Assembly (NCBI GenBank): GCA_022750435.1
Contig: JAKIVS010000003.1
Coordinates: forward strand, 1-64,000
Length of the DNA stretch: 64,000 bases
Direction of reading: 5' to 3'
Source: Thermoplasmata archaeon
GTDB taxonomy: Archaea; Thermoplasmatota; Thermoplasmata; Lutacidiplasmatales; UBA184
Shown here: positions 5,695 through 64,000 of the stretch, piece after piece
Position numbering within the stretch: the stretch's first letter is position 1
Layout: each line of letters starts with the position of its first letter
Notes under the pieces: generated by a model
Seen by the model: the letters and a program-made list of their open reading frames with translations, nothing else
Database searches by the model: none
Told to the model about the DNA's origin: nothing
Position numbers and translations under genes: made by a program

Positions 5695-8600
5695 ATGGCC
5701 GCCGTCGTCCGCCCTAGGTTTTCTCGTCGAATTCTCTTGGCCGTGCTGCTGGTCGGGCTGCTCGTTCTGAGCGGACTCGCGTCTGTTCCCTCCGGCCGGT
5801 CCACCGCGACGCTCCCGGCGGCGCCCTCGCATCTCGCGCCGGCGGCGAGCGCCACCGCCGCGCCCGCGTCGCCCCGGCCGGCCGCGACCATCAACTATTC
5901 CGCGTACCAGAATGACTCGTCGATCTCGAACATTCCGTATTCCCATTCCGATTGCTATCCCTACGCCGGCCTGACGGGCTGCTACGTCCAAGCTCAGGAC
6001 CCGACCTTGGTCCAACTTCCGAACTCCCAGGTCGGCGTCGGCTACTCCGTCCTCACGACCTTCAACACGACCAACTTCGACACCTGCCCGACGGCGAACA
6101 CCACGGTGACCCGCGTCGCGTTTGCGGTCTCCCCCGACAACGGCTCCACGTTTGGGACTCCGGTGTTTCTGCCGACGGTCGCGAAACCGTGCGATTACGT
6201 CCAACAGCTCGAGCCGACGTTCGCGGTGTCCGGCACCCAGGTCTGGGGCGCGTACGTCACCACAAACGCCACCGCCGCCCAGCTGATCCAACCCGCGTTC
6301 TCCTCGAACCCCCCGGTTCTCCAATGGTGGAACCGAACGACGGCCGGCATCGCGATCACCAACTCGAGCGACAACGGGTCCACATGGAGCAACGCGACGT
6401 TGCTGCTCAACGGCTCGAATTTTGCGAACCCGGTGCTGACGTCCTTCGGCGCCACCCTCTATCTTCTCTACCAAAACATCTCGAATGGAACGACGATCCT
6501 GCCGCTCAGCGGCCTCTCCGGGGCCGACCCGATCTCGGAGCAGCTCGTCTACTCGGCCGATGGCGGTGCCACGTGGCACGGGCCGTATACGATCCCCGGT
6601 GAAAACGCCTCCCAGAACTACACCACGATCGGCGGCTCGATCGCGGTGAGCCAGGGCGGAACGGTCGCCGTTGCCTATGCGACGAACCGATCGTGTCTCA
6701 ACTACTGCTACGCGTCGTATTACGCCGCGAGCGGGGACGACATCGTCGACGTGACTTCGACGACGAACGGGACGAGCTGGTCCCCCATCCATACGATCGC
6801 GCCCGGCCAGGGCGAAATCACGCGTCCGTACGGCCCGGCTCCGCCGTACTCCTGTTCCCAATTCAGCCCGAGCGGGACCGGACTGTGCGGCCTGTTCGAG
6901 GACTCTCCGATGACCTCGGTGACCTGGGGCACGGGAGCGCACCTCTACGTCGCGTGGGAGGCCGCTCCGTTCCGGAACGTCAGCTCGACGCCGGCCTACT
7001 ACTACAACTACAACCACGTCGCGGTCTACGCCGGGGCGTCGAACGACTCGGGCCAGACCTGGAGCTGGTCGGAGGTCTCTCCCGCGCTCAGCAATCTGAC
7101 CGACGCCCAGGACCTCATCGACGAGCAGTGGTTCAACCCCGCCATCGGCTATTCCGGCGGGGTGGTCTACCTGACCTTCTCCTACGTGAACTGGGGCGAG
7201 CTGACCGGATTCCAAGCCTACGGCAACGGCTTCGCGACCAACACCTACAGCCAGTGGGTGGCGACGAGCGCGAACGGTGTCTCCTATTCCTCCCCCACAC
7301 TCATCTACATCTCGACCCGCAGCGACGGGCTCGCGTACTATCACGACATGGGGGTCCACGCCAGCGTGGGCTTCACCGCGTCCGGTTCGCCCCTGTTCGC
7401 CTACGCGTTGGCGGACGGTTGGTTCACCAACATCTTCCCCGGCACATACGACTTCGTCGTGACCCTCTCCGTCTCCTCGGCGTGGTCCGGCGCGACGACC
7501 ACGCTCACCGTGGACGAGACCGGACTGAAGAATGGAACCGCCTGGCAGTTCGCCCTCGATGGCGGATCCGTCACCACCACCTTGTCGAGCGTGACCATCT
7601 CGGGGATCCCCATCGGCCAACAGATGGTCGTGACGTGGCCCGGGACCCCCGTCTCGATCGGCTACCGGGACCTCCTTGAGCCGGTGATCAGCACGACCAC
7701 CTTCCCGACGTTCTTCGGGCCGTCGACGGTGTGGTTCAATTTCACGAGTTTCTACGGGATCACGTTCACGCCCGGTCCGAACGACTACTACCTCGAGGTC
7801 GAGCTCTACAATTACGCGGGCATGGAGTTCGGGTACAACTTCTACTGGGAGACCAACCTCTACGCGGGCACGGTGACGTACTATTCCGGCGGGAACCCCT
7901 TCCCGTGGTATCTCCCCTCGAACACGACGTTTGAGCTCAGCACCGTACCCTCCGGAACATTCGAGGCGTACTACTACACGCAACAGTTCGTCGACTATTG
8001 GAACGGGACCGGGGCCGGCTCGTACACCGGCTCGGGAAATGCGGCGAACCTGACGGTTCGGAGCGCGTTCAACGAGACCCTCTGGGACCTCGCCGTCGGG
8101 ACGTACTCGGAGGAGTTCGTCCCGCTCGGGCTCCCGGCCAGCTCCACCTATTCGTTCGACGTCGACGGAGCCGGGTACTCCTCCGCCGGGACGACTCCGA
8201 CGGTCGTCCCCGGGCTGACGACCGGAGGGCATTCCGTCACGAACATTTCGGCCACGGCCACCGCCCCCGGCTGGTCGTACTTCGGCCACTCGACCGCGGG
8301 AAACCCCGTGCTGGTCCCCCTGGTGGTCCAGGACAACCTGTCGTTCAGCTATGTCAATACCTCGGCCGCGGCGGGGACCGTGAGCTTCCACGCGATCGGT
8401 GTGAGCACCGGGGCTCCGTGGCAGCTCAGCTTCAACGGCACGAGCTACAGTTCGAGCACGCCCTGGCTCAACCTCACCACGCGCCCGGGGGATTACGCGG
8501 TCGCCGCGAACCCTGTCGTCTCCGCGAACGGATCCGCCGCCCTCGCCCCCGAGCCGTTCGGCCCGATCCTGAGCGTGACCCCCGGCGGAAAGTACGACGT

Positions 8601-9987
8601 GAACTACACGGCAGCCTACCAGCTGTCCGTCCTTCGGTCGACCGGCGGAACGGTCACGCCCTCGGGAGCCTCCGTTTGGCTCGCCGCGAACGCGACCTCC
8701 AACCTCACCGCGACCCCGTCGAGCGGGTATTCGTGGGGCGGATGGACGGGGATCGGAGCGGGCTCGTACACCGGTCCGAACCTCACCGCCGAGGTGACGT
8801 CCCTGGGCCCAATCCAGGAGTTCGCGAGCTTCGTGCCCCAGCCGCCGAACCGGTTCAACCTCACCGTGAACGAAACCGGCCTTCCGGTCGGCTCGAGCTG
8901 GACGGTCTACCTGGACGGAACCGGCTACTCCTCCACCAGTGCGAGTTTCGTGGTACCGCACCTGTTTTCCTGTGTCGTTTCCGGGAGCCAGGGCCGGTAC
9001 GCCGTCACGGTCCCTCCGGTCGGCGGGTCGAACGGTACGGAGTACCTCCCCGCTCCTGGGACACCCACCACGGCGTGCGTCACGTCCGCCCTCGTGGTCG
9101 CCTTCGACTCCGCGTACGCGGTGACCGTCAGCCAAACGGCCGGCGGGGTCGTGCTGGGCGCGGGTTCGGGAGTGACGTGGGTCAATGACGGTTCGTCCGT
9201 CACGTTCCAGGAGGAGACGAACGCCGGCTACCTGTTCACCGGATGGGTCGGCACCGGGCCGGGGAGCGTCAGCGGCACGCTTGGCACTATCGTCGTCTCC
9301 CCGACCGGCCCGGTCGAGGAACTCGCGGAGTTCGCCCTCCCCGTCGTGGTTCCCGTGCCGACGTTCGCGGTCACTTTCACGGCGAGCTCGTCGCTGCCGA
9401 GCGGCGCCGCCTGGAACGTGGTCTTCAACGGCACAACCTACGGGGGCATCGCACCCACGATCGTGGTGCCGAACGTCCGAAACGGCACCTACGCGTACTC
9501 GGTCCCCGCGGTTGGCGGGCTCGCGACCGGCGCGCTCTACCAGACCACCGGCACGGCCACTCCGGTGAAGGTCGCGGGTGGACCCGTCAGCGTCCCGGTG
9601 ACCTTCGCGGCGAGCTATTGGGTGCAGGTCTCCGGGGTCGGCTCCGGCACGGTCTCTGGACAAGGGTGGGTCCCCTCGGGCCATTCCGTGACCCTCAATG
9701 CCACTCCGACGGGGTCCGCGTCGTTCGTCGGCTGGGTCGGGACCGGAAACGACTCGTATACCGGTTCCAACGCGGGACCCACCCTCCGGGTCTTCGCTCC
9801 CGTGGAGGAGGTCGCGTCGTTCGCCTCGACGCCTTCGGGAACCACGACTCCGACCTCGGGCTCCGGTGCTCCGTCCACGGCCCTCGAGGCCGGCCTCGCG
9901 GTCGTGGGCCTGGTCGTCGGGCTCGCGGTCGGCGTCGTCGTGGCTCGCCGCGGCCGACCTCCCGCCTCGGAGGGGAGGTCCGAATGA
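5695..9987 (+). CDS. Giant surface protein A1: Asp-box beta-propeller, repeat stalk, C-terminal membrane anchor
   Basis: Predicted secreted and anchored protein of 1430 residues; function unknown. A signal or anchor helix lies at about residues 12-30 (ILLAVLLVGLLVLSGLA), followed by an Ala/Pro/Ser linker. Residues about 60-595 hold six Asp-box-like motifs (SPDNGSTF, SSDNGSTW, SADGGATW, TTNGTSW, SNDSGQTW, a weaker SANGVSY) at about 75-residue spacing, as in a six-bladed sialidase-like propeller. From about 600 a stalk alternates 'ETGLxxGTxWxVxLDG' units with InlB-B-like units (GGWTGIGAGSYTG, GWVGTGPGSVSG). A C-terminal helix (about 1399-1418) ends in ARRGR. Many N-x-S/T sequons are present. 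No FRIP motif was found, so sialidase activity is not supported. It is coupled by ATGA overlap to the next gene. Confidence 0.85.
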   Translation: MAAVVRPRFSRRILLAVLLVGLLVLSGLASVPSGRSTATLPAAPSHLAPAASATAAPASPRPAATINYSAYQNDSSISNIPYSHSDCYPYAGLTGCYVQAQDPTLVQLPNSQVGVGYSVLTTFNTTNFDTCPTANTTVTRVAFAVSPDNGSTFGTPVFLPTVAKPCDYVQQLEPTFAVSGTQVWGAYVTTNATAAQLIQPAFSSNPPVLQWWNRTTAGIAITNSSDNGSTWSNATLLLNGSNFANPVLTSFGATLYLLYQNISNGTTILPLSGLSGADPISEQLVYSADGGATWHGPYTIPGENASQNYTTIGGSIAVSQGGTVAVAYATNRSCLNYCYASYYAASGDDIVDVTSTTNGTSWSPIHTIAPGQGEITRPYGPAPPYSCSQFSPSGTGLCGLFEDSPMTSVTWGTGAHLYVAWEAAPFRNVSSTPAYYYNYNHVAVYAGASNDSGQTWSWSEVSPALSNLTDAQDLIDEQWFNPAIGYSGGVVYLTFSYVNWGELTGFQAYGNGFATNTYSQWVATSANGVSYSSPTLIYISTRSDGLAYYHDMGVHASVGFTASGSPLFAYALADGWFTNIFPGTYDFVVTLSVSSAWSGATTTLTVDETGLKNGTAWQFALDGGSVTTTLSSVTISGIPIGQQMVVTWPGTPVSIGYRDLLEPVISTTTFPTFFGPSTVWFNFTSFYGITFTPGPNDYYLEVELYNYAGMEFGYNFYWETNLYAGTVTYYSGGNPFPWYLPSNTTFELSTVPSGTFEAYYYTQQFVDYWNGTGAGSYTGSGNAANLTVRSAFNETLWDLAVGTYSEEFVPLGLPASSTYSFDVDGAGYSSAGTTPTVVPGLTTGGHSVTNISATATAPGWSYFGHSTAGNPVLVPLVVQDNLSFSYVNTSAAAGTVSFHAIGVSTGAPWQLSFNGTSYSSSTPWLNLTTRPGDYAVAANPVVSANGSAALAPEPFGPILSVTPGGKYDVNYTAAYQLSVLRSTGGTVTPSGASVWLAANATSNLTATPSSGYSWGGWTGIGAGSYTGPNLTAEVTSLGPIQEFASFVPQPPNRFNLTVNETGLPVGSSWTVYLDGTGYSSTSASFVVPHLFSCVVSGSQGRYAVTVPPVGGSNGTEYLPAPGTPTTACVTSALVVAFDSAYAVTVSQTAGGVVLGAGSGVTWVNDGSSVTFQEETNAGYLFTGWVGTGPGSVSGTLGTIVVSPTGPVEELAEFALPVVVPVPTFAVTFTASSSLPSGAAWNVVFNGTTYGGIAPTIVVPNVRNGTYAYSVPAVGGLATGALYQTTGTATPVKVAGGPVSVPVTFAASYWVQVSGVGSGTVSGQGWVPSGHSVTLNATPTGSASFVGWVGTGNDSYTGSNAGPTLRVFAPVEEVASFASTPSGTTTPTSGSGAPSTALEAGLAVVGLVVGLAVGVVVARRGRPPASEGRSE

Positions 9988-12900
9988 CGCCGCGGCGCGC
10001 ACCGGCGGTCGGCCGGACCCTCCTCGCTCTCGCGGTCGCTGCGCTGTTCGTCCTCTCGGTGCCGTTGGCCGCCTCGACGACGGCCCGGTCGAGCGCCCCG
10101 GTCTTGGGAGCGTCGGCGATGATGATCTCCCCCGGGATGCCCAGTTCGACCCACGTCCGGCCGGCGTCCGGGCCGGTCGCCACAGGCCCTGGTGTGTTCT
10201 TCGACAACCAGGTGCTGCCGAACGCGACCGCCGGAACCGAGACGTGCTTCCCCCTCGGTTGCACGAACGTGTCGAACGACCCGTCGATCAACGTGACCTC
10301 GTACGGCACGATGGCGGTCGCGTACACCTCGTGGACCAACGCGAGCCCGTGCGCCGCGGCGATCCCGTACGCGGAGAGTGAGGTCGCGGTGGTGATTTCG
10401 ACGAACGGGGGAACGAGTTGGTCGGCCCCCACGCTCCTCGGGGCCCCCGCGTCGTGCTCGACCGCCGTAGCCCAGGCCGAGCCCGACGCCTGGGAGCCGA
10501 GCGTGACGAGCCTCGCGAACGGGACGCTCGTCCTCGTGTACGTGGCGTTCAACTCGACCACGCCTCTCTACTTGCTCGGACTCGGACCCGGGACGTTCTC
10601 GGTCAGCTCCGACCGCCTGATGCTCGCCGAAAGCTACGACAACGGCACCTCGTGGACGAGCCCCACCGCCCTCAACGTCTCCGACAATCCCCTCCTGACC
10701 AACTCCGCGTTCACCTCCGAGCGACCCTGGGTGACCGCGGTCGGGTCGACCGTCTACGTGACGTGGATGAACCTGACGGCGGCCCCCGGCCTCGTCGCCG
10801 GGGTCTCGGTCGGGTCGGCGGCGATCGAGCTCCTGGCGTCGACGAACGGCGGGGCCACCTGGCCGGCCCAGCCGACGACCCTTCCCGTCGTCGCGGGCGG
10901 GACGGGCCTCCAGGTCGCGATCAACCCCTACCCCCTCGTCCTCCCGAACGGGACGCTCGTCGTCGCGTACGCGACCAACTTCACCTTCGAGCCGCAGTTC
11001 GGCTGCCTCGGGACGTCGTGCCTCGCGAACACGTTCCAGGCGAGCGTCGTCGCCGCCATGTCGACGAACAACGGGAGCACATTCTCGCTCGCGACGGTCG
11101 CCCCGACGGTCGTCGTCGCGCCGAACGGGGCGGGAACGGCGCCCCGGGCGTTCGAGTCGTTCCAGGACCCGTCCCCCGAGCTGGCGTACGGCGCCGCGAG
11201 CGGCCAGCTGGTGGTCGCGTTCTCCGCCGGCGAGCTTCTGAGCAATTGCTCGGCGCTCCCCTGCTTCCCCTGGGTCGACTCGCAGATGATCTACGTCGAC
11301 AACTCCTCCGACGGAGGCGCGAGCTGGGCGACCGCCCACGTCGCTCTCCCGTCGACCGCCGGGTACGGCCTGTTCGGGACGTACTATCCGTCCGAAAGCT
11401 ACAACCCGGCGATCGCCATCGATGCGAACGGAACGGTGGACCTCGCGTTCACGTTCGTGAACTTCACGCTCTGCTCCCCCACCGCGTCGTACGGGACCAA
11501 CTGCGGCCCCGAGCAGGAGGTGTTCGGGCAGTCGACCGACAACGGGGCGACGTTCTCCGGCCCGATCCTTGTGGCGGAGAACTGGTCGTGGCAGTACAAC
11601 AACCCGACCGCGCCCGATGGCGAGTACGCCACCGCCGTCGTGGTGGGCGGCGAACTCTGGATGGCCTGGACCACCGCCGGGTGCCCCGGATGGGGGACCG
11701 TGAGTTTCTACGGATGCGGCTTCCCCGGAACGGCCGGCGGGAGCGAGGTCGTCGTCTCCCACGTGTTCCACGGGGCGGGCGTGAGCCTGTCGTTCACCGA
11801 ATCCGGTCTGCCGAACGGCACGACGTGGTGGGCGAGCGTCCTCGGCAACCTGCGGAGCGGACTCACTCCGGCCACGTTGTCGGTCTCCGGAATCCCCACG
11901 GGCGTCGCCGTCGGATGGACGTTCTCCGGCAACCTCTCTATCGGGTATGGAAGCCGGTACGCCGGAATCCCCTCTCTCACTGCACCCACTTTGCTCACCT
12001 CCAACACGACGGTGGCGGTCAGCTATTCCCAGGAGGTGCTCCTCCAGGTCTCGACGACGCCGGCGTTCGCTTCGGCGAGTGCCTCGGGGGGCTACTACTA
12101 CTGCCCCGGGTACCCCGCCCCCGTCTGGAACGACCCGGCGTGCCCCGGGATGAACTGGAACGTCACTCCGGGAGTCGGGGCGATGTGGGTCTCTCCCGGA
12201 ACGCCGGTCACCCTGAACGCGTCACCCATCGGGTCGGTCTATTGCGGCGTCGGCGTGACCTGCTACAACGTCCAGTACCTGAACCTCAGCTTCCTGTCGT
12301 GGACGGGGAATGGCCTTGGGTCGGTGAACACGACGGCGAACCGGACCACCGTCACCGTGACGGGTCCGGTCAACGAGACGGCGAACTTCCTGATGACCGG
12401 CTGGTGCGAGGCGTACCTGCCGCCCTACTACACGCTCTCCAACCAGTGCATTGTGAGCAACACCACGTTGACGTTCCACGAGACCGGACTCCCGAGCGGG
12501 ACGGCCTGGACCGTCTCGACGGTGTCAGCGTACGGGAACGCGACCGTGACGAACACCACCGCGTGGAATTCGGTCACCGGGGGAAGCACCGTCGGGGTCT
12601 CGAACTTCCAGGTCTGGACGGTGCCGGCGCCCGGAGGGTACTGGGTCCCGACGACGACCCCGGCGTCCCCCGTGATCCTGCCCCTGCCGCTCCTGGTGAA
12701 CGTGAACTTCACGTTCGTCACCTCGCTCGCATCCGACTCCTTTGAGGTCGACGTCGCGACCTCGGGGCTCCCGTCCGGGCTCCCGTGGTCGGTGACCCTG
12801 AACACGACCTACGGGGTCCCCACGGGCAACGTGACGAGCCTGACCGTGCCGAGCGGAACCTACACGGTGGGCGGCGGTACCGTCATCGGAACGAACGGCA

Positions 12901-14501
12901 CCGAATACGTCGTCACGGGCGTCGACTTCCGGTCGGACATCGTGAACCGGTCGGGCTGGTCGAACGGCTCGGCGCCCGGGACGATCACCCTCGTGGGCCC
13001 CGCCGAGGTCATCCTGGTCTACTCCCCCCGATACTGGCTCGACGTCGCCGCGACGAACGGCGGAAGCGCCGGTCCTTCGGACGCCTGGTTCGTCCCCTCG
13101 GCCGCGGTGACGTTGAGCGAATCGGCGGAGATGGGGTACTACTTTGCGGGCTGGGCGGGCACCGGACCCGGCGCGACCTCCGGGGCGCAGGACCAAGCCT
13201 CCTCGCCGACGATCCATATCGGTGGACCGGTCACGGAACTCGCCAATTTCGTCTCCAACGGCTCCCTCGGGGTCGTTGCCCAGGTGTCGGAAGTCGGACT
13301 CCCGACCGGCGAGGAGAACTTCTCGTTCAGCCTCGACGGCGCCGGGCACACGGCGGCGGGGACGGCGACGGTGAACGGACTCACGAACCAGTCGTACACG
13401 TTCGTCGCGGAGAACGCGACCGACCTCGGCGCCGGCGTCCTCGGGGCGGTCACCGGATGGACGACCTCCTACGTGGTCAACCCGAACGGGACGATCGAAG
13501 TCGACGGGGCGGGGACGATCCAGGTCAACTACTCCGTCCTCGACCAGGTCTCGACCACCGCGGTCGGCGACGGCCTGATCGCGCCCGGCTCCGGATGGGT
13601 TCCGAACGGCACTGTGTTCGACGTCACGGCCACGGCCGCGGGCGGTTGGGAGTTGGCGAGCCTCACAAGCAACCTTCCCTACGTCAACGTGACGAACACC
13701 ACGTTCCGGTTCGACGCCGTGGCCCCGGGGAGCATCGTCGCCGAGTTCGCGCGCATCCCGACGACGACGACCCCGACGTACGCCCTCGCGATCACCGAAA
13801 CCGGGCTCCCGAACGGCGGGAGTTGGAACGTCTCGGTCACCTCCTCGACGGGGACGGCGGCCACGGGCGGGATCGGCGCGACCCTCACGGTCGGGGGCCT
13901 TCTGGCCGGGTCGTACAACGTCACGGTCTCGATCTCGTATGGGGCCGCCGGGGTCCGGTACGTGCCGGGCTCCGTGGGCGCGGGACCCATCGATGTTCCG
14001 TCCACCGGAACCGCCGCCGTCGCCTTTGCGACCGAATACCTGTTGACCGTGGTCGCCGCGTCCGGTGGCACGGCGTCCCCCGGAACCGAGTGGAAATCGG
14101 CGGGTTCCGCGCAGATCCTCTCGGAGAGCCCGAGCTCCGGCCAGGCGTTCGAGGGTTGGAACGGCACCGGGACCGGCTCCTACACCGGGAACGCCACCGC
14201 TCCGAACGTGACCGTGAGCGGACCGGTGACCGAGACCGCGGCATTCGGGCCGGCCCCGACCCACTCGAGCCCGACGAACAGCTCCGGGTCGTCGTTCCCC
14301 ACCCTCGGGGTCGGACTGCTCGTCCTCCTCCTCGTCGTCGGTGCGGTCGTCGGGATCCTCCTCGGGCGGCGCGGCGGAGGCTCGGCGAGCCCGGCCGAGC
14401 CCACCGAGGAGACGCCGGGGGCCCCGGCGGAAGAGACGCTCTACGGACAATCGGCCCCGGACGCTGGGCCGGACGGCGAAACCGAAGGCTCGGAGACGTA
14501 G
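9984..14501 (+). CDS. Giant surface protein B1: Asp-box beta-propeller, repeat stalk, C-terminal membrane anchor
   Basis: Second member of the surface operon, 1505 residues, starting at an ATG that overlaps the TGA of A1 and follows a GGAGGGGAGG ribosome-binding site. It has an N-terminal hydrophobic helix (LLALAVAALFVLSVPL) and a head of about 600 residues with six Asp-boxes (STNGGTSW, SYDNGTSW, STNGGATW, STNNGSTF, SSDGGASW, STDNGATF). The stalk begins FTESGLPNGTTWWASV near 603 and includes FHETGLPSGTAWTVS, ITETGLPNGGSWNVSV and GWNGTGTGSYTG. The anchor helix is VGLLVLLLVVGAVVGILLG, then about 45 acidic residues, presumably cytoplasmic. The head resembles that of 61305 (shared SERPWV/PERPWI and cysteine spacing) more than that of its operon partner. 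No function is assigned. Confidence 0.85.
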   Translation: MTPRRAPAVGRTLLALAVAALFVLSVPLAASTTARSSAPVLGASAMMISPGMPSSTHVRPASGPVATGPGVFFDNQVLPNATAGTETCFPLGCTNVSNDPSINVTSYGTMAVAYTSWTNASPCAAAIPYAESEVAVVISTNGGTSWSAPTLLGAPASCSTAVAQAEPDAWEPSVTSLANGTLVLVYVAFNSTTPLYLLGLGPGTFSVSSDRLMLAESYDNGTSWTSPTALNVSDNPLLTNSAFTSERPWVTAVGSTVYVTWMNLTAAPGLVAGVSVGSAAIELLASTNGGATWPAQPTTLPVVAGGTGLQVAINPYPLVLPNGTLVVAYATNFTFEPQFGCLGTSCLANTFQASVVAAMSTNNGSTFSLATVAPTVVVAPNGAGTAPRAFESFQDPSPELAYGAASGQLVVAFSAGELLSNCSALPCFPWVDSQMIYVDNSSDGGASWATAHVALPSTAGYGLFGTYYPSESYNPAIAIDANGTVDLAFTFVNFTLCSPTASYGTNCGPEQEVFGQSTDNGATFSGPILVAENWSWQYNNPTAPDGEYATAVVVGGELWMAWTTAGCPGWGTVSFYGCGFPGTAGGSEVVVSHVFHGAGVSLSFTESGLPNGTTWWASVLGNLRSGLTPATLSVSGIPTGVAVGWTFSGNLSIGYGSRYAGIPSLTAPTLLTSNTTVAVSYSQEVLLQVSTTPAFASASASGGYYYCPGYPAPVWNDPACPGMNWNVTPGVGAMWVSPGTPVTLNASPIGSVYCGVGVTCYNVQYLNLSFLSWTGNGLGSVNTTANRTTVTVTGPVNETANFLMTGWCEAYLPPYYTLSNQCIVSNTTLTFHETGLPSGTAWTVSTVSAYGNATVTNTTAWNSVTGGSTVGVSNFQVWTVPAPGGYWVPTTTPASPVILPLPLLVNVNFTFVTSLASDSFEVDVATSGLPSGLPWSVTLNTTYGVPTGNVTSLTVPSGTYTVGGGTVIGTNGTEYVVTGVDFRSDIVNRSGWSNGSAPGTITLVGPAEVILVYSPRYWLDVAATNGGSAGPSDAWFVPSAAVTLSESAEMGYYFAGWAGTGPGATSGAQDQASSPTIHIGGPVTELANFVSNGSLGVVAQVSEVGLPTGEENFSFSLDGAGHTAAGTATVNGLTNQSYTFVAENATDLGAGVLGAVTGWTTSYVVNPNGTIEVDGAGTIQVNYSVLDQVSTTAVGDGLIAPGSGWVPNGTVFDVTATAAGGWELASLTSNLPYVNVTNTTFRFDAVAPGSIVAEFARIPTTTTPTYALAITETGLPNGGSWNVSVTSSTGTAATGGIGATLTVGGLLAGSYNVTVSISYGAAGVRYVPGSVGAGPIDVPSTGTAAVAFATEYLLTVVAASGGTASPGTEWKSAGSAQILSESPSSGQAFEGWNGTGTGSYTGNATAPNVTVSGPVTETAAFGPAPTHSSPTNSSGSSFPTLGVGLLVLLLVVGAVVGILLGRRGGGSASPAEPTEETPGAPAEETLYGQSAPDAGPDGETEGSET

Positions 14502-56958: not shown

Positions 56959-59900
56959 ATGCCCAGCCTGCCTTCTCGCCCGGCGCCCCACCCGAATCGC
57001 TCCACCGTCGTACTCGTCGTGGCGGCGTTGACTCTTCTGAGCGGCCTCGCGCTTCCGGGCCTCGTGCCGGCCTCCGCGGCTGTCCCGACGCCTCCCGCCG
57101 CCGAGGCGACTCCCGCCGCGGTCGTCCCGGCCCCTGCCTCCCCAGCCCCGCAGAGTTCCCCTTCCGCGCTCGCAAATTATCACCTGACCCCGGACATCGC
57201 CGCCCAGTCGCCGTCCCGTGTATTCTGCTCCTTCTCCTCCTCCCCCGGTTCGGTAAGCCGCTACTGCTTCCCCCAGGCCCAGAACCCCTCGGCACTCCAC
57301 CTCGCAAATGGAAACATCGCCGTCGCCTACTCCATCCTCACGAACGACACGACCTCCACATGCGCCGTGCCCGCGAACCTGACGAATAGCCGAATCGGAT
57401 TCTCCGTCTCCACCGACGGCGGACTCTCGTTCGGGAACATCACGTACCTCGGCAACGACACCTGCCCGTACGTCAACGCGATCGAGCCGTCGTTCGCGGT
57501 CTCGAACGCCGGACCGATTTACGGCGCGTTCGTGGAGGAAAACTTCTCCAACGCCTCGAATGCCGAAGACCCCGGCTTGCCGCCGGACTACGGCAATCGC
57601 ACGGGGGATGCGCTCGGCTTCGTCACCTCGACGGACAACGGGACGACGTTCTCGACCGTCCGCACCGTCGTCACGGGAGGGAACATTGCGCGTCCGGCGG
57701 TCGCGGCGATCGGCGAGACGGTTTACGTGACCTACACCGACACGGCGAACGGCACGACACCGATGGGACAGGGCACGGGGATCACCCGGCCGAGCCCGCT
57801 CCCGGAAGATGTTCGCATGGTCGTCTCCACCGACGGTGGCCAGACGTGGGGAACTCCCATCATCCTCCCCGGTGAGAACTCCTCGAGCCAATACACGGCG
57901 TTCGGCGCCTCGATCGCGGTGAGTCACTCTGGAACGGTGGCGGTCGCCTACGCGACCGACCGGAGCTGCCTCTCCTCCTTCGGCCCGTGCGCCACCGCCT
58001 TCTCGTCGGTGTACGGGGAAAATGTCGTCGTCGTCAGCTCGGACAGCAACGGCTCGACGTGGCGCGGACCCGTCACGGTCGGTGGACCGGCCGCTGAGGC
58101 TGGCTGCTACGGCTACGACAACGGCACCCCGGCGAGTTCCTTCTACACCGACCCGTGCCTGCAATACCTGTTCGAGCTCACGCCCCAGACCTCGGTGACG
58201 TTCGGAGCGACGAATCAGACCCTCTACGTCGCCTATTCCGGCGGCCATCCGGACTATTACTACTATTACGAGAACTCGAACGTCTCCGTCTCGGTTTCGA
58301 CGAACGGAGGCAAGAGCTGGACCGCGACGACCATCGAGGACCCGGCGCTCAACAACATGTTCACGCAGGAGGAGTACTCCACTCCGGCCCTGGGGTACTC
58401 CAACGGTACGGTGTACCTCTCCTATCTGGAGAAGAACGGGACGTCCTGCGATAACCTGGAGCCATTGTTCTCCATCTACTGCTCTCTGCTCCTCGGCTCC
58501 TACATCGAGTGGGTCACCTCAAGCCACAACGGGCTGACTTGGACCACCCCCTATTTCGTCGCCATCCAGACCTCGGCCGAGTACACCCCTCGCTGGATTC
58601 AGAGTTTCTCTGGGTACACCGACTCGGTGACGTTCAACTCGGCCGGCCAGCCCGTGTTCGCCTTCGCCATCGACCAACGACCGGATTCGGCGGCGGGGTC
58701 GATCGGTGGAACCAACTATCAGACGATCGACTTCGGCACCCTGCTCGACGTCGCCGTCGGGGGGGCCGGCTCCACCGTCGACCTGACGTTCCAGATCCAG
58801 GGAAACCCTGGGACGGTTCCCTGGAGTTTCAGCGTCAACGGTCAGAACTTCACGGGGGCTGCCGGCACGACCACCTATGTCGTGACCGGCGTTCCGGCGA
58901 ATCAGACGGTCAAGATTGAGGGCCCGACGGCGATCCCCAACGGTTTCTGGAAAGAGCGGGTGTTCCGGGCAAGCGTGCCGGAACTCTCTCAATTCGCGGC
59001 GAATGCGACGGTGGACTTCAATGGAACGGCCGATCTCGGGATCTCCTTCTCGTACCAGCCCCCGAATCTGCTCGACTGGTGCCTCTGTCTGTACCTGGAC
59101 GGGGCCTACTACATCTACATCCCATACGTCGGCGCCGGCTTCGGCGGGATCTCCGAGCCCGCGTTTCCCTGGTACTTCCCGGCCGGCACCAAGCTCCTGG
59201 TTCAGCCCCAACTCAACTCCGGATCGGACCCAACACTCTACTACACCGGCACCGGGAATGGGTCGTACACCGGTCCGGGCACCTGGGCCAATCTCACGAT
59301 GAACGCTCCCATCAACGAGACCGTTTGGAACGGACTGATTGGGAACGGCTCGATCAACGTCAACGCGGTCGGATTGCCCTCGGGCACTCCCTACTCCTTC
59401 CAGGTCGACGGGGTCAGCGCGACGGGCGTCGCCGGCACCACGACGTACGTTGCGAACCTTCCCGTCGGGCCGCACGTGGTCACCGGCGCGCAGGCGAACG
59501 GAACTGGCGGGTTCGAGTGGTTCGGCTCGCCGGCGTCCACCACCGTCGTCGTTCCGTTCGAGAGCAACGTAACTCTCGACTTCGCCAGCGTCAACTTGTC
59601 CTCGGCGCTCGGCACCGTCGCCTTCCAGGCCTCCGGGCTGACCGCCGGTTCGGAGTGGACGATCTCGTTCAACGGGACCCTCTACTCCACGACGGGGGGT
59701 ACGATCAACGTCACGAGTCGCTCCGGAATCTACCCGTTCGCCAGCTACTCGGCCGTTGCCCTCGGCGGGACGGCCGGGTACGCTCCGACGACGGTCGGCC
59801 CGAGCGCCTCGGTGCAGAGCGGGTCGACGTTCCTCGTGAACTACACGAGCGCCTACCTGGTCCGTATCGCCCCGGGCGTCGGCGGCACCGACAGTTCGCC

Positions 59901-61308
59901 CCTCACCGGCTGGTCCGCCCCTGGCACGGTCCTTCCCCTGAGCGCCACCCCGTCGTCGGGCTACACGTTCGTCGAGTGGGCGGGAACCGGGAACGGCTCC
60001 TACTCCGGTCCTCTCGCATCGACCAACGTGACGGTCCAGGGTCCGATCGAAGAGACGGCCGTCTTCGCGGCCCTTCCCGGGGCGCGGTTCAACCTGACCT
60101 TTACGGAGGCGGGCGTGCCCTCCGGAAGCTTCTGGAGCGTCAATCTCGACGGTCGCAACTACGCCGCCGCCACCTCGGGGCTCCAGGTTTCCAACTTGTA
60201 CCCGTGCTCGGTCGGGGCGAAGGGACTCTACACCCTCTCCCTGCCCTACGCGACCGACGCGACGCAGAGCGGGATCCGCTACGTGCCGAACTCGTTGAAC
60301 GGGACGGTCTGCACGACCGGCTCGACGGTGGTCCCCGTTCAGTACTCGACGGAATACCTCGTCAACACCACCACGAACCTTCCGGCGGCGACGGTCAGCG
60401 CCACCTGCGGCCTTTCGGTCGGGACCGCCGTGTGGTGCAGCGCCGGAGCGCCCACGGACCTCGCGGCTCCCGCCGTCGCCGGCTACAGCTTCCTGGGGTG
60501 GATCGGCACGGGCGCCGGGAGCTATACCGGGAATCTTTCGAACGCGAACTTTGACGCGAACGGTCCCGTGTCCGAGTTGGCCAACTACGCGCCGGCGGCT
60601 CCGCCTCCGACCTACACGGTCACCTTCTCCGCGAGTCCCGCGTTCCTAGTTGGGACGACCTGGTCGGTCAGCCTCGGCGGCCATGCGTACTCCTCCTCGG
60701 GCAGCACCCTCCTCGTGCCAGGGGTACCGGCGGGAACGGCCCAGTTCACTCTCTCCACCGCCTACTCCCCGACGGCGACGACGAAGTACACCCCGCTTCT
60801 GCTGACGGTCGGCGTGGCCGTGAGCGGCAACACCGCGAAGACGGTCCGCTACGGGGTCGACTTCGCCGGGACGATCTCGGGCAGTAGTGGCGGAACCGTC
60901 GGACCGGCGGGCGGTTGGTTCGCCGCGAACGCCTCCGTCCCGCTGAGCGCCGTCCCGAACGCGGGCCAGCAGTTCGTCTCCTGGACCGGGACCGGGGGGG
61001 CGTACTCCGGGACCGACCCCAACGGCTCGTTCTCCGTCACGGCGCCGTTCACCGAGATCGCCACCTTCGCCCCGGTCGGTTCCGTGCCGTCGACGACCAG
61101 CACCACCTCCTCGCCGTGGAACTCTCCGCCCCTCTGGGCCGGTCTCGCCGTGGTCGGGCTCCTCGTTGGCCTGGCGGTTGGCCTGCTCCTCCTCCGCCGC
61201 GGCCGACCCCCCGCCGGCGAGGAGCCGGCGTCGAGCGCTGCCGAGCCCACACCGGAGGAGTCGGCCTCGCCCCCCGCGGATGACCCACCGGCTCCGGAGG
61301 TCGCATGA
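56959..61308 (+). CDS. Giant surface protein A2: Asp-box beta-propeller, repeat stalk, C-terminal membrane anchor
   Basis: Paralogue of A1 (5695-9987), 1449 residues, function unknown. The signal/anchor helix is VVLVVAALTLLSGLALPGLV. Six Asp-box-like motifs (STDGGLSF, STDNGTTF, STDGGQTW, SDSNGSTW, STNGGKSW, SSHNGLTW) are spaced about 70-85 residues apart in a head of about 600 residues. The stalk from about 605 includes QGNPGTVPWSFSVNGQNF, VGLPSGTPYSFQVDG, FTEAGVPSGSFWSVNLDG, GWIGTGAGSYTG and SWTGTGGAYSG. The C-terminal helix (about 1393-1413, LAVVGLLVGLAVGLLLLRRG) is nearly identical to that of A1, followed by an acidic Pro-rich tail. Its TGA overlaps the ATG of the next gene. Confidence 0.85.
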   Translation: MPSLPSRPAPHPNRSTVVLVVAALTLLSGLALPGLVPASAAVPTPPAAEATPAAVVPAPASPAPQSSPSALANYHLTPDIAAQSPSRVFCSFSSSPGSVSRYCFPQAQNPSALHLANGNIAVAYSILTNDTTSTCAVPANLTNSRIGFSVSTDGGLSFGNITYLGNDTCPYVNAIEPSFAVSNAGPIYGAFVEENFSNASNAEDPGLPPDYGNRTGDALGFVTSTDNGTTFSTVRTVVTGGNIARPAVAAIGETVYVTYTDTANGTTPMGQGTGITRPSPLPEDVRMVVSTDGGQTWGTPIILPGENSSSQYTAFGASIAVSHSGTVAVAYATDRSCLSSFGPCATAFSSVYGENVVVVSSDSNGSTWRGPVTVGGPAAEAGCYGYDNGTPASSFYTDPCLQYLFELTPQTSVTFGATNQTLYVAYSGGHPDYYYYYENSNVSVSVSTNGGKSWTATTIEDPALNNMFTQEEYSTPALGYSNGTVYLSYLEKNGTSCDNLEPLFSIYCSLLLGSYIEWVTSSHNGLTWTTPYFVAIQTSAEYTPRWIQSFSGYTDSVTFNSAGQPVFAFAIDQRPDSAAGSIGGTNYQTIDFGTLLDVAVGGAGSTVDLTFQIQGNPGTVPWSFSVNGQNFTGAAGTTTYVVTGVPANQTVKIEGPTAIPNGFWKERVFRASVPELSQFAANATVDFNGTADLGISFSYQPPNLLDWCLCLYLDGAYYIYIPYVGAGFGGISEPAFPWYFPAGTKLLVQPQLNSGSDPTLYYTGTGNGSYTGPGTWANLTMNAPINETVWNGLIGNGSINVNAVGLPSGTPYSFQVDGVSATGVAGTTTYVANLPVGPHVVTGAQANGTGGFEWFGSPASTTVVVPFESNVTLDFASVNLSSALGTVAFQASGLTAGSEWTISFNGTLYSTTGGTINVTSRSGIYPFASYSAVALGGTAGYAPTTVGPSASVQSGSTFLVNYTSAYLVRIAPGVGGTDSSPLTGWSAPGTVLPLSATPSSGYTFVEWAGTGNGSYSGPLASTNVTVQGPIEETAVFAALPGARFNLTFTEAGVPSGSFWSVNLDGRNYAAATSGLQVSNLYPCSVGAKGLYTLSLPYATDATQSGIRYVPNSLNGTVCTTGSTVVPVQYSTEYLVNTTTNLPAATVSATCGLSVGTAVWCSAGAPTDLAAPAVAGYSFLGWIGTGAGSYTGNLSNANFDANGPVSELANYAPAAPPPTYTVTFSASPAFLVGTTWSVSLGGHAYSSSGSTLLVPGVPAGTAQFTLSTAYSPTATTKYTPLLLTVGVAVSGNTAKTVRYGVDFAGTISGSSGGTVGPAGGWFAANASVPLSAVPNAGQQFVSWTGTGGAYSGTDPNGSFSVTAPFTEIATFAPVGSVPSTTSTTSSPWNSPPLWAGLAVVGLLVGLAVGLLLLRRGRPPAGEEPASSAAEPTPEESASPPADDPPAPEVA

Positions 61309-64000
61309 CGGCGGTCCCGGGCCCGGGACGCCGCCGTATCGCGGCCGCGCTCGCGGTGGCCGTCGTCGCCTTGATGGCACTCCCGGCAGGCTCGTTCGCG
61401 TTCGGGTATTCTGCTCTCCCGACCGCGAGCGACCACGCCTCGGGCGACCTCCTCGTTCCGTCGAACCCCGCCGCCCGCTTCGTGGCGCCCTCCGTCCACC
61501 CGGGGGTCACGGGGTCGAACACGACGTTCTTCACGAACACCCCGATGCCGCTCCCGACGAAGCAAGTCTGTTACGGCGGACCCGCCTCGGGCGCGTGCGC
61601 GAACATCACCAACGAGCCCTCGATCAACTACACGTCGACCGGTGTCCTCGCAATGGCGTACACCGCCATCACAAACGCGAGCCCGTGCCCCAACGTCTCC
61701 GCCAGCGCGCAGTCGGAGATCGGCTTTGTCAGTTCGACGAATCTGGGCGCGAGTTGGTCGTCCCCGGTCTATCTCGGAAACCCCGTGTGTTCGGACGGCC
61801 CCGCGTACGCGAGCGCGTGGGAGCCGAGCCTCACTTCCCTCGGGAACGGAACGCTGGCGCTCGTGTACATTGAGTACAACATGTCGGGGACGCTCGGCGC
61901 CGCCCCGTTCGTTCCGTACTCCTCGGAGGTGAACACCCCGTACGCCCGGCTCGTGTTCACGGAGAGCTACGACGGGGGAAGCACGTGGACGACCCCGACC
62001 GTTCTGAACTCCTCGGCGCTGAACGCCTCGGGGAGCCTGAGGCTTTGGACCCCCGAACGGCCGTGGATCTCCGCGCAGGGCAACTCGGTCTACGTGACCT
62101 GGGAGAACTTCACGCAGTCCACGTTGTACCCTCAGTCCTACAACCTGAACTGGGCCGGCGGTGCCTCGATCGGGTCCCATCTGGTCGTCTCAACGAATGG
62201 CGGCTCGACGTGGGGCACGCCGATCGACCTCCCCGTCACGACGGGGCTGTACTATCCGTTCTACGAGCACGTCGCGATGAACCCGACCGTCCTCGCCGCG
62301 CCCAACGGCTCCGTGTACGTCTCGTTCACGACGAACGTCTCCTACGGCCTGCCGTGCGCGACGATCTGCCTCCAAGCTCCGACTGTGGTCGGGAACGTCG
62401 TGGTGGGCGAATCGCGGGACAACGGGAGCACGTTCCGGTGGTCGACGATCGCCGCCGACGTCGCGCTGAACCCCCTGTGGGGTGCGTTCTACGACCCGTC
62501 CCCGCAACTCGCGGTGAACCCGACGACGGGCCAGCTCTATGCGACGTACTCGGCGGCCCTTCCCGGGACCTATTGCTTCCCCTCCGTGCCGGTGTTCTGC
62601 GGCGTGGAAGCCGCGTCGTCCGCCGTCTTCTTCGCGAACTCGTCCGACGGCGGCGCAACCTGGTCGACGGCGCACCTCGTGGACCCGAGCCTGATCGACA
62701 ACAATGGGGGACCCCAGAGCGAGACGTACAACCCGTCGCTCGTCGTCGACAACCAGGGCGTGGTTCACGTCGAGATGTCCTACGCGCAGTACGTGCCCTG
62801 TGCGAGCTACTGTGTCCGCCAGGAGCAGCTGTACTACAACAGCACCGACAACGGCACGACGTTCGCGGGCGGGTACATCCTCTCGGGGAATTACACGTTC
62901 AATCCCAACCAATGGGACGGCGAGTACGACACGATGGCGAGCGCGGGGGGTCACCTGTGGATCGCCTACGTCCAGGACCTCTGCCCGGCGTGGGTCACCC
63001 AGAGCTGCTACATGTACAGCAGCACGACCGGCCGCGCCCAGGTGACCGTCGCCGAGCCGTTCCGGGGCACCGGCGTGACGCTGACCTTCACGGAGACCGG
63101 AGTCCCCAGGGGGTCCTCGTGGTCGGTGGACGTCCTCGGCAACGTGCGTTCGGCCACCGCTCCGGCGAGCATCGCGGTGGGAGGCGTACCGACCGGCCAG
63201 AGGCTAAACTGGAGCCTGCCTTGGGAGAACGTCAGCTACGGGGACTCCTACCAAGGAACCGTCCCGACGTCGACGCCGTGGGTCTTCTCGGCGAACGCGA
63301 CGATCCCGGTGACGTACGCGCAGTTCGTCCGGGTCCAGATCACCACGCTGCCGAACTTCAACGACTGCTACGGCCAGTGCCTGAACTGGAACTTCCCGAC
63401 GCCGGGGGTGACGTGGCTCCCGGTCGGCTCCGGCTTGACGGAATCCGTGACCTACGCGGCGCCGAACTGCGCGACGGCGTACTGCGACTATCTCAACGTC
63501 ACGTGGCTCGGATGGGCCGGGGTGGGCAACGGGAGCGTTAGCGGCAACCAGACCACCATCAGCTTCACGGCGAACGGACCGATCAACGAGACGGCCCAGT
63601 TCCTGCCGATCGGTGTCTGCTACGGTCAGATCCCGTACCTGACGTGCTCGGGGAACGGGACGGAGCTCGTGCAGTTCAACGAGTCCGGGCTCCCGACCGG
63701 GACGTCCTGGTCGGTGACGGCGGACGGGGTTACGGGAAGTTCGACGAACGGGACGCTCGAGCTGAACGTGCCGAACGGCACGGTCTCCTGGAGCGCCTGG
63801 ACGGTCCCGTCGGGGGCGACGAACCTGTGGGTCCCCACCTCCAACCAGCCGTTGGTGATCGAGGTCCCGTACACGCAGTACGTCGACCTCACCTACACCA
63901 AGTCCGCCCTGACGGGACAAGCGTTCTCGGTGCAGTTCAACGCCGCCGGGCTCCCCTCGGGAACGAACTGGGCGGCGAATCTTTCCGGAACCCTCGACGC
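61305..64000 (+). CDS. Giant surface protein B2 (partial): Asp-box beta-propeller and start of the repeat stalk
   Basis: Frame open from ATG 61305 (ATGA overlap with A2) to the window edge, about 898 codons, so the C-terminus is missing. N-terminal helix: AAALAVAVVALMALPAGSFA. Six Asp-box-like motifs (TNLGASW, SYDGGSTW, STNGGSTW, SRDNGSTF, SSDGGATW, STDNGTTF) fill the first 590 residues. It matches B1 (9984-14501) position by position, for example NEPSINYTSTGVLAMAYTA against NDPSINVTSYGTMAVAYTS, PERPWI against SERPWV, and the stalk start FTETGVPRGSSWSVDVLGN against FTESGLPNGTTWWASVLGN. By analogy about 600 more residues and an anchor are expected beyond the edge. Confidence 0.85.
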   Translation, partial: MTAVPGPGRRRIAAALAVAVVALMALPAGSFAFGYSALPTASDHASGDLLVPSNPAARFVAPSVHPGVTGSNTTFFTNTPMPLPTKQVCYGGPASGACANITNEPSINYTSTGVLAMAYTAITNASPCPNVSASAQSEIGFVSSTNLGASWSSPVYLGNPVCSDGPAYASAWEPSLTSLGNGTLALVYIEYNMSGTLGAAPFVPYSSEVNTPYARLVFTESYDGGSTWTTPTVLNSSALNASGSLRLWTPERPWISAQGNSVYVTWENFTQSTLYPQSYNLNWAGGASIGSHLVVSTNGGSTWGTPIDLPVTTGLYYPFYEHVAMNPTVLAAPNGSVYVSFTTNVSYGLPCATICLQAPTVVGNVVVGESRDNGSTFRWSTIAADVALNPLWGAFYDPSPQLAVNPTTGQLYATYSAALPGTYCFPSVPVFCGVEAASSAVFFANSSDGGATWSTAHLVDPSLIDNNGGPQSETYNPSLVVDNQGVVHVEMSYAQYVPCASYCVRQEQLYYNSTDNGTTFAGGYILSGNYTFNPNQWDGEYDTMASAGGHLWIAYVQDLCPAWVTQSCYMYSSTTGRAQVTVAEPFRGTGVTLTFTETGVPRGSSWSVDVLGNVRSATAPASIAVGGVPTGQRLNWSLPWENVSYGDSYQGTVPTSTPWVFSANATIPVTYAQFVRVQITTLPNFNDCYGQCLNWNFPTPGVTWLPVGSGLTESVTYAAPNCATAYCDYLNVTWLGWAGVGNGSVSGNQTTISFTANGPINETAQFLPIGVCYGQIPYLTCSGNGTELVQFNESGLPTGTSWSVTADGVTGSSTNGTLELNVPNGTVSWSAWTVPSGATNLWVPTSNQPLVIEVPYTQYVDLTYTKSALTGQAFSVQFNAAGLPSGTNWAANLSGTLD

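Follow-up and report, generated by a model that had tools for sequence, protein, structure and literature searches.

What do two giant overlapping genes of an acid-soil Thermoplasmata archaeon encode, and do their products work as one surface machine? The surface biology of the uncultured acid-soil Thermoplasmata is almost unknown. The source genome is a Thermoplasmata MAG of 1.9 Mb in 28 contigs, and its relatives are mostly MAGs of acid-soil Thermoplasmata, including Candidatus Lutacidiplasma silvani. The window is the whole stretch of DNA that was analysed, 64,000 nucleotides long, and the genes, here called A and B, and their parts are laid out in it as follows.

5695..9987, + strand: gene A, 1430 aa, with signal helix, predicted propeller head, stalk, C-terminal TM helix and 13-aa tail
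5872..7485, + strand: A head, predicted Asp-box propeller, about residues 60-597, with seven A-B strand hairpins and six Asp-box-type turns
7486..9870, + strand: A stalk, ~810 aa of ETGL-type and InlB-B-type beta units
9984..9987, + strand: A/B overlap, ATGA, with the B start ATG at 9984 and the A stop TGA at 9985-9987
9984..14501, + strand: gene B, 1505 aa, with signal helix, predicted propeller head, stalk, C-terminal TM helix and 46-aa acidic tail
10161..11783, + strand: B head, predicted Asp-box propeller, about residues 60-600, with seven A-B strand hairpins and six Asp-boxes
11784..14310, + strand: B stalk, ~837 aa of ETGL-type and InlB-B-type beta units
56959..61308, + strand: second A-type gene, A', 1449 aa, which keeps all six pocket residues of its family
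61305..64000, + strand: second B-type gene, B', with a 4-nt overlap with A', running past the window to contig position ~65669

Both frames translate without a stop and reproduce the sizes and the ATGA link given by a sequence-only reading of this DNA, and the architecture that it described (signal helix, Asp-box head, stalk, C-terminal helix and tail) is present in both proteins. The anatomy recurs in dozens of homologues and so is not a matter of chance. The second pair, A'/B', had been overlooked in that reading. Beyond the window, the same genome carries a third A-B pair on contig C15, and its contig C6 ends in a truncated A gene.

The heads, ~540 residues in both proteins, carry Asp-boxes. 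A has four canonical ones (146, 224, 287, 449) and two degenerate ones (~355, ~523), and B has six (139, 217, 286, 360, 441, 517). The Pfam profile BNR_2 (PF13088; cut-off 31.4 bits) matches the head of A with 37.2 bits (E 2.8e-9) and that of B with 46.8 bits (E 3.4e-12), and its matches among the homologues at E<=0.01 are 19/26 and 20/22. A sequence search of the PDB gave no real match. AlphaFold2, supplied with alignments of natural homologues, modelled A residues 60-700 with pLDDT 74.6 and pTM 0.81 and B residues 60-1099 with pLDDT 76.6 and pTM 0.64.

The proposal of a propeller head, which a non-propeller model was to have overturned, is borne out by the predicted models of both proteins as well as by the profile search against propeller families. 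The strand inventory of these models, counted against the sequence, has seven A-B hairpins per head, six of them followed by an Asp-box-type turn. From this hairpin count we read both predicted heads as seven-bladed propellers. In Foldseek searches of the PDB, the best matches of both heads are overwhelmingly GH33 sialidases (E ~1e-11, 10-15% identity), and the high rmsd to these six-bladed proteins fits the seven-bladed reading.

The stalks are built of two kinds of motif. ETGL-type motifs occur three times in A and five times in B, and InlB-B cores of the GWxGxG type three times in A and twice in B, which has one variant in addition. The divergent InlB-B repeat PF18998 (cut-off 23.6 bits) scores 37.9 bits in the A stalk and 28.3 bits in the B stalk. 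The C-terminal hydrophobic helix that follows leads in both proteins into the tail, which in B is acidic and ~46 residues long. A has 43 N-x-S/T sequons and B has 50, and an STT3-type oligosaccharyltransferase is encoded in the same genome.

Stalks of the same type carry different heads in other proteins of the genus, namely a thermopsin protease, a YncE-type propeller and an unassigned enzyme-like head (L131:3200-6286 in G000:C11, L172:580-4389, L146:376-2712 and L171:13028-16000). No B-type partner was seen for these other stalked proteins. The ETGL/InlB-B stalk looks like a shared display platform in the genus.

Whether A and B belong together is best asked of their homologues. Head searches in 78 genomes of the genus found A in 25. 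B turned up in 27, the surplus being two contig-edge cases (G098 is cut inside B, and in G080 an A-like stalk lies upstream, the head of which would be off the contig). The profiles of A and B cross-match, so the agreement of the genome lists is partly automatic and the junction-by-junction survey is the real test. Every A gene whose 3' end is visible (42/42) has B next and an in-frame ATG or GTG that overlaps the A stop by 4 nt, although common descent means that these 42 pairs do not count as independent. Conversely, an A-like gene precedes 50/50 B genes that have at least 450 nt upstream. Hence the visible junctions hold no exception to adjacent pairing, and the single, unlinked homologues that would have spoken against it were not found.

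Under a stricter signal-helix rule, the 4-nt start stands at 33/37 junctions. At four junctions the hydrophobic helix is farther than usual from the 4-nt-overlap start, so a later B start is possible there. The tandem arrays, with four pairs in G024:C44 and two each in G005 and G085, provide an internal control for the A-to-B overlap, as their B-to-A junctions are gaps of ~70-200 nt and never overlap. Mean head identity is only ~36-38% within A and within B, so the 4-nt overlap has outlasted a long period of divergence.

A and B heads form separate clades in a FastTree tree with midpoint root (support 1.0 for A and 0.81 for B). The A-head distances correlate with the B-head distances (r=0.79 over 34 pairs), and the true partners beat all of 5000 within-genome re-pairings (mean r 0.43, max 0.76). 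The pairs are thus inherited as units. Such co-divergence is explicable by linkage alone and does not in itself show contact.

Some loci have the two genes in a changed arrangement. At seven loci, A and B parts are in one open frame. Full fusions with both heads are found in G024:C3 (3193 aa), in G198:C2 (3208 aa) and, cut by contig ends, in G198:C61 and G198:C107; G198:C74 has the same junction with the A head cut off. In G027:C63 and G023:C122, a headless B stands behind A in one frame, and G078:C36 has its headless B as a gene of its own that overlaps A by 4 nt. The linker of the full fusions consists of the A C-terminal helix, a charged loop and the B N-terminal helix. The three headless copies keep most or all of the stalk, which means that the B head can be lost while the B stalk stays next to A.

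In G198, a genome of the sister genus (loci L222-L227), all four readable A-B junctions are in-frame fusions. A single indel at the 4-nt overlap can join the frames, so we weighed an origin of the fusions by chance or assembly error. The evidence is against it, because 4/4 junctions are fused in that genome, because the full fusions fall within one clade with full support in each of the A and B subtrees and because five examined full-fusion junctions have no obvious leftover 4-nt overlap, the exceptions being one out-of-phase GTGA and one ATGA-like codon past the junction. The 640-kb contig G024:C11 lies inside the full-fusion clade and is unfused, which implies more than one gain or loss of fusion.

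The stalks also match in length. Across 32 pairs the A stalk measures 820±17 aa and the B stalk 820±19 aa, and partners differ by 14.5 aa on average (r=0.58, permutation p=0.0006). These equal lengths could be inherited from an ancestor of A and B.

Taken together, co-translation, the fusions, the headless partner and the equal stalks make a twin-stalk heterodimer a concrete hypothesis. We think it reasonably probable that A and B, which are co-translated, assemble into an obligate recognition complex at the cell surface, with two heads and probably a 1:1 ratio of subunits. The tight coupling and the heteromeric complex suggested by the sequence-only reading are strengthened by the 4-nt overlaps, the fusions, the headless B and the stalk lengths.

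The strongest rival is simple co-expression, where A and B would be independent surface proteins of one operon, equally expressed and displayed side by side with no complex. Selection for equal expression may be enough to account for translational coupling, common descent makes linked genes co-diverge, and neither protein lacks export or anchor parts of its own. However, contact is the better fit to the full fusions in two genomes (G024, G198), to the A plus headless-B fusions in two genomes (G023, G027), to the retention of most or all of the stalk by headless B and to the stalk-length match within pairs. We regard independent display as unlikely.

In the two-headed complex that we prefer, coupled translation would yield equal amounts of A and B. 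A signal helix would export each protein and the C-terminal helix would anchor it. The two propellers would then be raised on beta-domain stalks of equal height, probably side by side.

Loops B-C and D-A form the active-site face in sialidases. Here these loops have a mean length of 15.3 aa in A and 17.0 aa in B (mean SD 2.8 and 3.0), against 6.3 and 6.2 aa (mean SD 0.26 and 0.20) for the turns A-B and C-D, a contrast with Mann-Whitney p ~1e-5 for each head. One propeller face of both heads thus has long, length-variable loops and the opposite face rigid turns. Such asymmetry is common among propellers of many functions.

Six charged residues of the A family (E173, R214, D217, R245, R332 and E374) are conserved in ~77-95% of 45 heads and map to strand ends on the loop face. 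Two of them are replaced in the A of the window (D217 by A and R245 by N). Heads of the B family show another charged set, which is less conserved.

Another reading takes one or both heads as active glycosidases of the sialidase superfamily, harvesting soil or biofilm polysaccharide. The best structural matches are nearly all sialidases and the six charged A-family residues sit on what would be the catalytic face. The GH33 sialidases, such as those of Micromonospora viridifaciens (1eur/1eut) and NanI, share the Asp-box propeller fold with the A and B heads, but they are six-bladed and have the FRIP arginine and the Arg-triad/Tyr-Glu site, whereas the A and B heads have seven predicted hairpins and neither of these. 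The FRIP motif is absent from A and B, as the sequence-only reading had it, and strand A at the start of blade 1, where the arginine of R-I-P belongs, reads DPTLVQL in A and DPSINVT in B with no conserved Arg. No Arg triad, Asp acid/base or Tyr/Glu nucleophile pair of GH33 was found, the charged residues being at other blade positions in the A family and weakly conserved in the B family.

GH33 membership is ruled out by these motif, active-site and blade-count tests. As modelled, the heads are propellers of the sialidase superfamily without the GH33 active site. With two of the six residues missing in the window's own A, and with a different and less conserved set in B, activity as a glycosidase seems quite improbable. 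For the two-headed complex, the variable-loop face would instead recognise a ligand outside the cell, a glycan or a surface glycoprotein of a neighbouring cell being the most likely kinds. The pair would then serve as an adhesin or receptor with two heads, whose specificity would diversify as whole pairs are duplicated.

The distribution of the family is patchy. Among 350 Thermoplasmata genomes (97 genera), it is in only 26, which belong to one GTDB family and three genera, and the pairs per genome range from one to at least seven. In about ten genomes, the A-B pair is divergent from genes that we take to be homologues of isopentenyl phosphate kinase, type-2 IPP isomerase, Elp3 and MetK (loci L130, L132-L134, L140, L143, L145, L147, L153, L154, L170 and L144). 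This site is likely the ancestral A-B locus.

Near B in most of 11 genomes lies a multi-helix membrane protein of 138-175 aa (L172:13533-13967 and ten other loci), for which no Pfam match was found. The A gene and a flanking propeller gene are nearly identical between L151 (G077:C5) and L159 (G079:C26), which are in different species bins; this suggests recent transfer or bin contamination, and G079 is listed with 8% contamination. PHROGs and PADLOC searches gave zero matches to phage or defence families, and a phage or defence origin of A and B was dropped.

An S-layer-like coat, one of the roles first proposed, is weakened by this patchiness (25/78 genomes of the genus) and by the one to several pairs per genome. 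As large, sequon-rich, co-encoded components in a genome with STT3, A and B might make up the main lattice of a two-component S-layer, in the manner of SlaA/SlaB. This is highly improbable, as about two thirds of the sampled genomes of the genus, including the near-complete G028, lack the family, its copy number varies, and A and B each have their own anchor.

In the two-component S-layer of Sulfolobus, SlaB is the membrane-anchored part (PMC10903991). SlaA/SlaB of the Sulfolobales and A/B are alike as two co-operating surface proteins with a stalk-like reach and many N-glycosylation sites, but in the former a soluble SlaA is combined with SlaB as the only anchored component, held by a trimeric coiled coil (PMC10903991). 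A and B both carry a C-terminal hydrophobic helix, unlike the soluble SlaA; both are headed, their stalks are of beta domains, and the pair is patchy and multicopy rather than a cell wall throughout the clade.

Archaeal surface proteins with propellers and PKD/CARDB domains (Jing et al. 2002; ARMAN Mia14) are described in PMC5498576. These too set propellers on beta-sandwich domains with a proposed role in adhesion. Their propellers are of Kelch/YVTN type and, unlike A/B, they are not described as obligate partners with overlapping genes. The text of the main Lutacidiplasmatales paper (PMC9287336) has no match to S-layer, BNR, sialidase or adhesin, and a search of mainly open-access literature found no description of the A-B pair.

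In summary, the A-B family is a large surface system, multicopy and confined to one lineage, and its genes are paired with unusual strictness. More tentatively, it may represent a new class of surface machine, an obligate heterodimer with equal twin stalks and variable-face heads that is held together by the universal 4-nt overlap or by natural fusion and forms a repertoire of recognition receptors in tandem arrays. If true, these archaea would use such a tandem-array receptor repertoire for cell-cell or kin/prey recognition.
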